A stretch of 36,457 nt of DNA from positions 1-36,457 of IMG/VR virus record IMGVR_UViG_3300028577_000004. One strand, 5' to 3'. The notes below the pieces were generated by a model. That model saw only the letters and a list, made by a program, of their open reading frames with translations. It was not told the DNA's origin and ran no database searches. A program made the translations under genes and the position numbers. Each line of letters starts with the position of its first letter. Positions within the stretch are counted from its first letter, which is position 1. Positions 16,076-20,290 of the stretch are shown in pieces. The stretch is from a virus.

Positions 16076-16108
16076 TTAAGCTAATGTTGCGCGTAAGTTA
16101 ATTACCCA
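16076..16108 (-). CDS. Major capsid protein exon 4
   Basis: Ten codons and the stop (WVINLRATLA) complete the capsid protein. The exon starts directly after the terminal G of intron 3 at 16109. Joined to exon 3 it gives EVPRITNDL|WVINLRATLA, the typical end of this N4-gp56-type capsid family. The exon is preceded by intron sequence AGTAACAGAATG, which is nearly the same as the 3' ends of introns 1 and 2. As an isolated open frame it would never be called. Confidence 0.85.
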   Translation of the reverse strand, partial: WVINLRATLA

Positions 16109-16317
16109 CATTCTGTTACTTTTGTGACCTTTTCAGGCGGGGAAACCTCTTCGGATCTCCCTCTCTATGTCGCCATAGAGTTCAGACTATCGCATCGCCT
16201 TGCGGCGTCTCTTCACTTAGTCGTTCACGCTGTAGCTAAAGCCACTTGCGCCTTGTTGTCTGCAAAGCAGAGTTCCAAGTCAATCAGAAGAGATTTTAAG
16301 ACCTCAAGGATTTTTTT
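16109..16317 (-). ncRNA. Group I intron 3 (209 nt, no ORF) in the capsid gene
   Basis: The 5' exon ends in GACCTT (16323-16318), which pairs with the intron guide GAGGTC. The last exon U pairs with G, as required for P1 of a group I intron. The core shows the R and S elements of P7 (CGACTAAGTG, and further on GCGATAGTCTG). A hairpin GACGCCGCAAGGCGATGC lies between them. The intron ends in G at 16109. Reading through instead would add a stretch beginning KKILEVLKSLLIDLELC and stop at 16225, losing WVINLRATLA. It is a minimal, ORF-less ribozyme closely related to intron 2. Confidence 0.88.
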
Positions 16318-16791
16318 AAGGTCGTTCGTGATACGAGGCACTTCGGCAAATTTATAACCAACAGAAGCGTTAAGCGCTAATGGACCATCATATATTGGTG
16401 GACGATAAATAAAGCTTGCGCTATATCCGTCTTGTTCGATACAAGCGTATGCCTCTAAACCGACGCAGAAAATATTGTAAACATTTGCGCCGTTGCTTGA
16501 AGCGTTTGCTGCAAATGATCCAATAGAACTGATAAGGAAACGAAGGTTACCAATCGCTCCCCATTCGCTGCGCAACGCGTTCATAGGTGAAGGATACTGA
16601 TTTTGATGGATAAATCCGGCAACTGCATCCAAGTTACCCGTTAATTGGGTTGAGCATAATGCAAAGTACGCATCACGAACTGGCGCTGTACCGAACTTAT
16701 CTTCACCTTCAATGTTATCCATAATTGTGTATGCATTGTTATTAAGCAATGTACGCACAACAGCATCAACGTCTGAACGTGTGATTTCAGT
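16318..16791 (-). CDS. Major capsid protein exon 3 (largest)
   Basis: 158 codons encode the central and C-terminal part of the N4-gp56-type capsid protein, including DAVVRTLLNNNAYTIMDNIE, GTAPVRDAYFAL, YPSPMNALRSEWGAIGN, YNIFCVGLEAYACIEQDG and GYKFAEVPRITNDL. The exon begins after the terminal G of intron 2 at 16792 with codon ACT. It ends at 16318 with CTT, the last base of P1 of intron 3. An apparent TTG start at 16794 is only the intron-exon border. The joined phase is intact on both sides. Confidence 0.9.
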
Positions 16792-16988
16792 CAAATTTGT
16801 TACTCCCTTGCGGGGGATAAGCCATTTCTGCTTATCTCAGAACCTTTCGTTGTTCTGTCCGGACTATCGCATCCCTTGCGGGTCTTCTCACTTAGTCTCT
16901 CACGCTGCTTACGCTTGCGCCCTGTCGCCATAGTTTCCCTTAGGCTTCCAAGTCAATCAGAGAAGATTTTACAACCCCACTAAAATCT
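16792..16988 (-). ncRNA. Group I intron 2 (197 nt, no ORF) in the capsid gene
   Basis: The 5' exon ends AACCCT (16994-16989) and pairs with guide GGGGTT inside the intron, again with a terminal U.G pair. Next comes AAATCTTCTCTGATTGACTTGG, almost the same as in intron 3. The P7 strands are AGACTAAGTG and GCGATAGTCCG, separated by an ACCCGCAAGGGA hairpin. The 3' end is GAGTAACAAATTTG with the terminal G at 16792. Splicing joins NGDNP to TEITRSD in frame. The unspliced reading stops within a few codons. Confidence 0.88.
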
Positions 16989-17139
16989 AGGGTTATCGCC
17001 ATTTACTCCACCAACACAGTTAATGAAACCAGCAGTTGCTGCTAACATATCACGTGTTAGTTGATCTTCTGTTTGACGGAGTGAAACACCAAGACGTGCT
17101 GCGCATTCATTCAAAACTGGATCTTGGTTTTGTAAGGTA
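16989..17139 (-). CDS. Major capsid protein exon 2
   Basis: 151 bases encode TLQNQDPVLNECAARLG, VSLRQTEDQLTRDMLAATAG and FINCVGGVNGDNP. The exon begins with the last base of a split Val codon (GT|T) and ends on a codon boundary with CCT. The residues upstream in the same frame (MVNKSNRKC) are intron 1 sequence and are not part of the protein. The QDPVLNE...G..LRQTED..TRD core is characteristic of this capsid family. Confidence 0.9.
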
Positions 17140-17877
17140 CATTTTCTGTTACTTTTATTGACCAAATGTTTTCTATTTGGCGATGAGTCTTGTTATTCCT
17201 CATTCTCTATGTCTCCATAAAGATCGGACTATCGCTTCACCTTTCGGTGTCTACCCGCTTTAGTCTCTCACGCTAGTCATCTATTCTTATTTATGGTACA
17301 CTGTATACATAAATAAAGGATTAATCTTATGTGGTCAAAAGAACAATTAATTTATATGGCTGGAATCTTCGATGGTGAAGGTTCAGTTAATATTGAAGTA
17401 CAAGCTCCCAGAGAAAATAGAAAGTATTATTACTATAGCCTAAGAATCATTCTCATTAATACCAACAAGGATTTAATGGAATGGTTGGTAACTTCATTTG
17501 GTGGCAAATACTCTGAAAGAAAGAAGATTGAGAAACGAAAACTATGTTACCGTTGGGCAAAATGTTCTCGTGAAGCTGCCGAAATATTAGAGGCATGCTT
17601 GCCATATTTAATTGTTAAAAAGCCACAAGCGCTTTTATTTATTGAGTTCATGCAAACTATGGGAAAAACTGGTTGGTTTGTTTCTGATGAAACAAGATCC
17701 AAAAGACAGTTTCTTTATGATGAGATGCGTAAACTTAATAAACAAGGCGATTAATATATAGACCCTTGCGCCTTGTCACGCTCGTCTTTACGTTAGCGCT
17801 TCCAAGTCAATTAGGGCTGATTTAAAGCAGGCTACTGCTTACAAAACCAAGAAATTTCAAAGATCGTTCGTTATTTA
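17140..17877 (-). ncRNA. Group I intron 1 (738 nt) with antisense LAGLIDADG gene
   Basis: The 5' exon ends GCAGGT (17883-17878) and pairs with the guide GCCTGC 40-odd bases into the intron, with a U.G pair at the splice site. After the guide comes TTAAATCAGCCCTAATTGACTTGG, related to introns 2 and 3. The P7 strands are AGACTAAAGCGG and GCGATAGTCCG, and the 3' end is AGTAACAGAAAATG with the terminal G at 17140. The extra length is an insertion holding a homing-endonuclease gene on the opposite strand. Splicing restores LNEQV|TLQNQDP. Confidence 0.87.
17329..17754 (+). CDS. LAGLIDADG homing endonuclease, antisense in intron 1
   Basis: This 141-residue protein has the single LAGLIDADG motif as YMAGIFDGEGS at residues 9-19. 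It continues with the usual beta-rich DNA-binding part (YYYYSLRIILINTNKDLMEW, then WAKCSREAAEILEACLPYLI) and helix PQALLFIEFM. Single-motif enzymes act as homodimers and cut intronless alleles so that the intron is copied in. The gene is read on the plus strand, opposite to the capsid mRNA. It therefore cannot be translated from the capsid transcript and needs its own promoter. AAAGGA before the ATG is its ribosome site. It lies in a peripheral part of the intron outside the conserved core. Confidence 0.9.
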   Translation: MWSKEQLIYMAGIFDGEGSVNIEVQAPRENRKYYYYSLRIILINTNKDLMEWLVTSFGGKYSERKKIEKRKLCYRWAKCSREAAEILEACLPYLIVKKPQALLFIEFMQTMGKTGWFVSDETRSKRQFLYDEMRKLNKQGD

Positions 17878-18196
17878 ACCTGCTCGTTCAACGTTACATA
17901 AGTCAAAAACGTTAAACTGTTATGGCACTTTTACCATAAAACGAAATCTGAGCATCAATGTCCACAGCGGTTAGACTTTGCGCTGGAGGCGTGATTCCTG
18001 AGTTGCCTAGTGGTACCATTGCAGTGTTCAATGGATTGTATCTACGCATACGTAAAGTGTTACCACCGTTACGAGGCATATTTTTCTTCATTGCAGGGAT
18101 TTTATGAATCATATTTGGCACAGGAACGCTCAAAAGTTTATAAGAAAAACTTTGCTGAACGGGCGATGGCAAAATACTTGTAGTAGTTATAGCCAT
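17878..18196 (-). CDS. Major capsid protein (N4-gp56 family) exon 1, interrupted
   Basis: The start ATG at 18196 (MAITTTSILPSPVQQSFSYK) leads into MPRNGGNTLRMRRYNPL and DIDAQISFYG, the N-terminal part of N4-gp56-type capsid proteins, which form the icosahedral shell. The expected continuation TYVTLNEQV is present at 17903-17878 but in another frame, because 29 extra bases (17904-17932) follow the YG codons. Read straight, the frame gives KSAITV and stops at 17914-17912. If those 29 bases are omitted and the three introns are removed, the four exons give exactly 316 codons (315 residues), the normal family length. The gene has its own promoter and is preceded by a terminator. Confidence 0.85.
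17904..17932 (-). other. 29-nt frame-breaking segment in capsid exon 1
   Basis: On the minus strand this segment begins AAAAGTGCCATAACAG and ends ACGTTTTTG. It separates the YG codons from the ACT TAT GTA codons that resume the family sequence. It contains a TAA in the incoming frame and is not a multiple of three. CATAA (17925-17921) and TTATG (17901-17897) could form a weak stem around its middle. It is too short for a group I intron. Options are translational bypassing, a -1 frameshift that keeps extra residues, an assembly indel or a real defect. Confidence 0.6.
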
Positions 18197-20217: not shown

Positions 20218-20290
20218 TTGCCCAGGCAGGATTTGAACCTGCATCTTCCTGATCCCAACCAGGGCTCTTCTAGTCTTGAGCTAATGGGCC
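20218..20290 (-). tRNA. Degenerate tRNA-like sequence (possible pseudo-tRNA-Pro)
   Basis: A 73-base element on the minus strand has an intact T arm (GCAGG TTCAAAT CCTGC), a D stem GCTC/GAGC and an anticodon stem CCTGG/TCAGG. The anticodon loop is only six bases (TTGGGA), the D loop lacks GG, and the acceptor stem pairs over only five positions, with mismatches at 1:72 and 7:66. TTGGGA resembles a proline tRNA loop with one base missing. It may be a decayed or structural tRNA-like RNA rather than a working tRNA. It lies between the terminator at 20304 and the 160-residue gene. Confidence 0.5.

Follow-up and report, generated by a model that had tools for sequence, protein, structure and literature searches.

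We conclude that the major capsid gene in IMG/VR virus record IMGVR_UViG_3300028577_000004 (36,457 bases, all of which is called the window here) contains a 29-nucleotide (nt) mini-intron without a catalytic core. From sequence comparison, we consider it likely that this mini-intron is non-autonomous and that the core of the next intron in the gene, a 738-nt group I intron that we call its partner, excises both the mini-intron and itself. Comparison of related loci establishes the boundaries of the mini-intron, its P1 and P10 helices, an antisense helix with a fixed register, and a dependence on the core-bearing neighbor. We rate the finding as a new category because of this two-intron unit, subject to an in vitro test.

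The capsid gene runs from 18196 to 16079 on the minus strand, and its coding sequence is spread over several frames of that strand, as an initial annotation had recognized from scattered N4-gp56 capsid sequence. Spliced protein-to-DNA alignment, run against a profile built from relatives without introns and slightly favoring T before an intron and G as its last base, gives five exons and introns of 29, 738, 197, and 209 nt, the first of which was found unprompted. The initial annotation was wrong in counting four exons and three introns. It placed the three full-length introns and their in-frame joins correctly, and alignment to homologues confirms its 315-residue product, but its join of exon 1 to exon 2 skipped the insert at 17904-17932 without remark, and it missed the tie of this core-less intron to the 738-nt intron and the antisense LAGLIDADG gene within the latter.

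The spliced product (315 residues, stop-free) is 96% identical to the uninterrupted protein of one relative (L001) and scores 142.3 bits against the N4-gp56 capsid model TIGR04387, above the cut-off of 60. Single open reading frames (ORFs) score 43, 17, and 56 bits, all under that cut-off, which supports the earlier expectation that standard gene calling would yield fragments. The joins agree with 62 uninterrupted homologues of 315 amino acids (aa) at 78 to 96% identity, including the FYG/TYV join across the mini-intron. The first ORF ends after ...ISFYGKSAITV, and homologues read ISFYG-TYV; the insert must be removed because the frame of exon 1 is otherwise broken and never reaches LNEQV. The features of the gene are as follows.

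16079-18196 (-): N4-gp56 family major capsid protein gene (spliced alignment, TIGR04387); stop codon TAA at 16076-16078
17933-18196 (-): exon 1, residues 1-88, ending TTTTATGGT (spliced alignment)
17933-17938 (-): TATGGT, the last six bases of exon 1, 5' strand of the mini-intron P1
17904-17932 (-): mini-intron, 29 nt, without a catalytic core (spliced alignment, structural detector); it reads AAAAGT, guide GCCATA (17921-17926), ACA, arm GTTTAACGTT (17908-17917), TTT, and G
17900-17903 (-): ACTT of the mini-exon, pairing with AAGT of the mini-intron (17927-17930) as P10
17878-17903 (-): mini-exon e2, 26 nt, encoding TYVTLNEQV (spliced alignment)
17886-17895 (-): arm target in the mini-exon, pairing with 17908-17917
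17878-17885 (-): partner P1 strand in the mini-exon, GAGCAGGT
17140-17877 (-): partner group I intron, site 96.2, 738 nt (spliced alignment, family model)
17825-17832 (-): guide of the partner intron, GCCTGCTT
17701-17823 and 17204-17327 (-): halves of the partner core, flanking the endonuclease gene
17329-17754 (+): LAGLIDADG homing endonuclease ORF, 141 aa, within the partner intron (PF00961)
16989-17139 (-): exon 3 (spliced alignment)
16792-16988 (-): compact group I intron, site 147.0, 197 nt, core at 16839-16969 (family model, 127 bits)
16318-16791 (-): exon 4 (spliced alignment)
16109-16317 (-): compact group I intron, site 305.0, 209 nt, core at 16162-16296 (family model, 124 bits)
16079-16108 (-): exon 5 (spliced alignment)

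The mini-intron and its tie to a partner intron

The comparison drew on 197 distinct capsid loci from IMG/VR and genome contigs, of which 195 cover residue 88. An insert of 28 to 41 nt interrupts codon 88/89 (FYG/TYV) in 55 of these 195, and the statistics that follow rest on 49 distinct cases with a resolved neighbor. Every one of the 49 breaks the frame by an in-frame stop, by a length not divisible by three, or by both. Each forms a P1 with a U·G pair on a 5' exon ending in CGGT or TGGT; the helix is TACGGT/GCCGTA in 46 cases and TATGGT/GCCATA, a compensatory change, in the window, and the two others are compatible. The glycine codon is GGT in every locus that has the mini-intron, and in those without it GGA (42), GGC (28), GGT (19), or GGG (9). 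In P10, the three bases before the guide pair with the ACN of the following exon, and the base facing the Thr89 wobble position is complementary in all 49 (G-C in 31, A-T in 8, C-G in 5, and T-A in 5), when 21.9 matches are expected and the maximum in 20,000 permutations was 33. All 49 have U at the 5' site and end in G, two bases that the alignment score favors, as it does not favor P1 or P10. The boundary can be shifted by one base without changing the protein (GG/../GAC), and U before and G at the end were picked by the group I rule; that placement is supported because P1 and P10 then adjoin. Judged by sequence, the P1, the P10, and the terminal G of the mini-intron are those of group I splicing. 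No P3-P8 catalytic core is found in the 29-nt insert, and guide and arm together use nearly all of the 28 to 41 nt.

A structural detector for this grammar, blind to protein sequence, returned 34 distinct matches in 5.8 megabases (Mb), all at codon 88/89 and none at other sites or in other genes, and 0 in 2.0 Mb of shuffled sequence. On both strands of the window, its sole match is the mini-intron at 17904-17932. Spliced alignment likewise yielded no other insert under 150 nt resembling it: the 19-nt inserts at residues 118-119 are alignment noise with five residues deleted alongside, and the remaining short inserts lie in truncated contigs. Assembly error was rejected as an origin of the mini-intron, which occurs as 49 distinct sequences from many metagenomes.

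The arm of the mini-intron, starting three bases past the guide, is complementary to the stretch of exon that immediately precedes the next intron. Its bases 3 to 11 face exon positions -9 to -17 of the partner 5' splice site and are paired at 402 of 441 positions (91%), with compensatory changes at many of them; sliding the arm by 1 to 4 nt lowers the paired fraction to 33 to 52%. The partner P1 takes exon positions -1 to -8, and the arm helix abuts it. There are three arm classes for three partner sites, with own-site binding of -10.8 (96.2), -14.7 (104.2), and -15.7 (116.2) kcal/mol, compared to -5.6 kcal/mol or weaker at sites without common exon sequence. Each class binds its own site only, except at 104.0, which lies two bases off 104.2 and has exon sequence in common with it. 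Pairing is also specific to the locus: permuting arms weakens binding from -11.1 to -6.3 kcal/mol within 96.2 (0 of 5,000 permutations as good) and from -15.7 to -11.0 kcal/mol within 104.2 (p 0.0002), and within 116.2, which has too few loci, p is 0.33. Minimum-energy folds of the region form the mini-intron P1, the arm helix, and the partner P1 as successive hairpins in 7/7 loci tried.

Among the 53 of 55 mini-introns for which the downstream region was resolved, none lacks a downstream partner intron. The other two are a locus that ends 85 bases downstream (L291) and one that breaks off before the end of the gene, so that the alignment fails (L235); family core sequence is nonetheless present downstream of the mini-intron in L235. 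Partner sites are occupied without a mini-intron once at 96.2 (L300), nine times at 116.2, and never at 104.2. In a FastTree phylogeny of 169 capsid genes, with the codons around the insert left out, the mini-intron is gained or lost on supported branches no fewer than 23 times; its association in independent contrasts is 21:0 for introns at partner sites (p ~1e-6) and 6:4 for other introns. These counts are approximate because the tree is a quick one and phages may recombine. LAGLIDADG genes occur in most 96.2 partner introns and are missing from short partners that keep the mini-intron, and the tie is therefore to the ribozyme and not to the endonuclease.

Proposed mechanism and alternatives

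We propose that the capsid pre-mRNA, with its four introns, would be served by three ribozymes. The mini-intron would bring its own P1, P10, and terminal G, and the partner would bring the core. Along the RNA, the series of mini-intron P1, 3 nt, antisense helix, partner P1, and core would equate to P1-J1/2-P2-P2.1-P3, with the 3' splice site of the mini-intron in the loop of the arm helix. The partner core would dock the mini-intron P1 and cut after GGU; the GGU exon end would then be joined to AC(N), the terminal G of the mini-intron serving as the 3' splice site; and the partner core would finally dock its own P1 and remove itself. We infer the splicing itself, the partner core as its agent, action in cis, and this mini-intron-first order from the comparisons above. 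On balance, we favor the broader interpretation that this is a natural one-ribozyme, two-intron unit, in which a cis-acting spliceozyme core is accompanied by a core-less satellite intron of 28 to 41 nt whose arm is re-addressed with the site of the core and which makes the core indispensable. A speculative advantage is that the pair may spread as one unit by homing; the partner would have become essential because its loss alone would leave an unspliceable capsid gene, which is conjecture.

Several points weigh against this mechanism. Were the partner to leave first, the mini-intron would be stranded, and the model therefore calls for a mechanism that sets the order. Docking of P1 via a helix of 9 to 12 bp is not the usual entry and is geometrically unproven, and a P9.0 pairing with the 3' end of the mini-intron was not identified. 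The fold predictions were made after the pairs had already been seen by comparison. In addition, core-less Phialophora introns of 63 to 75 nt are reported to splice without a second intron (PMC3160393), and dependence on a partner is thus not logically required.

The Phialophora case suggests that the mini-intron might itself be a minimal group I ribozyme, with a helix between the middle of the intron and the 3' exon and with an incidental neighbor. PaSSU introns have P1, P7, P10, and just such a pairing and are reported to splice in vitro (PMC3160393), and the mini-introns likewise have P1, P10, and an intron-to-exon helix. We consider self-splicing improbable, as no P7 fits into 28 to 41 nt besides guide and arm, and the mini-introns end in G where PaSSU-type introns have a terminal U; for lack of a P7, a PaSSU-type ribozyme was rejected. 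Moreover, the register of the arm is tied to the splice site of the neighbor, with a target 9 to ~69 nt from the 3' end of the insert; the arm retargets with the neighbor; and the mini-intron is never seen without it.

Equally improbable, in our estimate, is that the neighboring core acts in trans or after its own excision, with the arm as a docking site for the free intron or as a means of holding the transcript. Group I cores accept detached P1 substrates. Engineered group I spliceozymes excise 100-nt introns in trans (PMC6155759). However, the arm pairs with exon sequence, which an excised partner leaves behind, so the arm could no longer recruit the core, and the arm helix adjoins the partner P1 without a spacer, which fits action in cis.

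Translational bypassing, in which the ribosome would take off at the Gly GGT codon and resume beyond the insert, as happens in T4 gene 60 or at the yeast mitochondrial byps, would account for a small insert with a take-off GGT within a hairpin and, in many copies, a stop codon soon after. We regard it as very improbable and rejected it, as the landing codon is unlike the take-off codon: the codon before the resume point is GGN in 0 of 49 cases (AAG in 14, TTG in 12, ATG in 8, TAG in 7, CTG in 4, ACG in 2, GAG in 1, and CCG in 1), and glycyl-tRNA would therefore be unable to re-pair. Bypassing also leaves the P10 covariation and the tie to a downstream ribozyme unexplained. That the insert is a dead relic of a former full-length intron, in a dead gene or without harm, is just as hard to credit: class-96.2 inserts do hold a GTAACAG-like sequence resembling the 3' end of the full introns, but the insert invariably disrupts the frame of an essential gene that is intact in other respects, its P1, P10, and arm are kept by compensatory change over at least 23 supported state changes, and no locus has a full-length intron at residue 88. 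Exon skipping from the mini-intron 5' site to the partner 3' site was rejected, since P10 covaries with the mini-exon and not with the later exon and a phase 0 to phase 2 join would shift the frame.

The compact intron family

The earlier proposal of group I introns in the major capsid gene is supported by covariation, by P1 helices with U.G, by a family model, and by homologues that lack introns, and the three full-length introns (96.2, 147.0, and 305.0) are real group I introns that are predicted from sequence to self-splice. Alignment detects no intron in 77 of the 195 loci, and introns of this compact family in about 118 of them. A core of ~200 nt is common to introns at about 30 positions of the one capsid gene across relatives, consistent with the suggested spread within the gene. 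The consensus comprises P3, P4, P6, P8, P9, and P9.1; of its 35 nested core pairs, 33 show double changes. The predicted P7 strands are present, their pairs being intact in 31/31 introns with compensatory changes at two positions (C-G to G-C; A-U to U-A or G-C). The shared 3' end AGTAACA..G and the U.G P1 helices at the three named breaks (GCAGGT/GCCTGC, AACCCT/GGGGTT, and GACCTT/GAGGTC) were also confirmed. Counting mini-introns, a P1 of 6 to 9 bp with U.G occurs in 177 of 183 family introns and is re-made for each site, and a P10 of at least 3 pairs is common.

The general group I model of Rfam (RF00028), proposed as a check in the initial annotation, does match at two introns, 17205-17363 (22.9 bits) and 16163-16327 (25.3 bits), but weakly relative to the gathering score of 50, which is a library threshold and not a structural feature; a search of six relatives with it gave no match. 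The general model misses this compact family. A family-specific model scores 127 bits at site 147.0 and 124 bits at site 305.0, and on the 738-nt intron it gives two half-core matches (20 and 46 bits) split by the LAGLIDADG gene.

The endonuclease ORF (17329-17754, plus strand) scores 25.4 bits against PF00961, above the cut-off of 23.1, and is antisense to the capsid gene, as in other endonuclease-bearing 96.2 introns. Antisense orientation holds in most endonuclease-bearing introns of the family (96.2, 98.2, 104.2, 116.2, and several at 104.0 and 144.0), and the LAGLIDADG genes at sites 12.0 and 12.2 are in sense orientation. Antisense endonucleases are already known in introns of ribosomal DNA (PMC9548176). 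Mid-sized introns at 104.0, 144.0, 184.0, and 273.2 (L006, L048, L226, and L236) carry sense ORFs of ~90 to 130 aa without a LAGLIDADG motif, several of which start MTRGKIM. Of the 34 introns at site 96.2, 25 place the guide at least 35 bases past the intron start and carry in the P1 loop a segment that is antisense to the 3' exon and would form an extended P10-like helix (in the window, 17833-17877 with 17116-17139, minus strand); it binds its own exon at -18.1 kcal/mol, compared to -15.5 kcal/mol for those of other loci (0 of 5,000 permutations as good).

No compact-family intron was found outside the capsid gene in the fetched loci. Relatives of the family, not annotated as introns, lie in the ribonucleotide reductase gene of Roseobacter phage CRP-118 (L423, 2501-2588) and the P22-like coat gene of ctn9Y15 (L424, 2501-2620), and the structural detector finds no mini-intron near either. 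Two of three genome-collection matches to the capsid (L295 and L296) are on contigs binned with environmental chlamydiae (Parachlamydiaceae and Simkaniaceae); tailed phages of chlamydiae would be notable, and binning errors are likely. Elsewhere in the window, a tRNA-like sequence at 20218-20290 (minus strand) has a two-base anticodon call and scores 28.2 bits (Rfam cut-off, 29).

Relation to known systems

The route from self-splicing introns to the spliceosome is believed to pass through the splicing of core-less introns by an RNA catalyst distinct from them. This step has been discussed for group II introns and has been engineered with group I introns. If our interpretation is true, phages provide a natural, recurrent case, the mini-intron is among the smallest introns known, and a ribozyme can gain a second, programmable target. 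The unit is small enough for an in vitro assay: its two introns total ~230 nt in, for example, L064 and L018. These two loci and L081 combine a mini-intron of 28 to 35 nt, a 26-nt mini-exon, and a short partner of 195 to 199 nt. Short, unexplained, frame-breaking insertions in phage genes may likewise be spliced, and gene callers and the general Rfam group I model miss them. Euglena plastid group III introns and twintrons, which use group II chemistry, are also degenerate and are thought to be spliced by catalytic parts located elsewhere, but they are not tied to a neighboring intron by an antisense arm.

The full-length introns belong to a known kind. Phage group I introns are known in capsid and tail genes of cluster J mycobacteriophages (PMC3706429) and Bastillevirinae (PMC11878797), and those described here share with them P1, P3-P9, a terminal G, and, in one, a homing endonuclease. 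The present family differs in being compact, in occupying ~30 positions of one gene, in falling below the RF00028 gathering score, and in its antisense endonuclease. The mini-intron, in contrast, lacks the defining core of group I and fits no known family. In a literature search with most subscription papers and bioRxiv outside it, we came upon no description of a core-less intron that is served in nature by the group I core of a neighbor.

The nearest natural case is that of the Phialophora ribosomal DNA introns (PaSSU and relatives, 63 to 75 nt; PMC3160393), which share the U.G P1, the P10, the loss of most of the core, and the helix between the middle of the intron and the 3' exon. Those introns keep P7, end in U, occur singly in ribosomal RNA of a fungal nucleus, and are reported to splice alone, whereas the mini-introns are 28 to 41 nt long, lack P7, end in G, interrupt a phage protein gene, and depend on a neighboring intron with a core, at whose splice site the arm is aimed. 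Functionally, the closest analogue is the engineered spliceozyme (PMC4094466, PMC6155759), in which, as proposed here, a group I core excises an intron other than itself. Spliceozymes are artificial, act in trans, and define the 3' site via P9.2, whereas the unit described here is natural, apparently acts in cis, and would define the 3' site via P10, with a core that would remove itself too.

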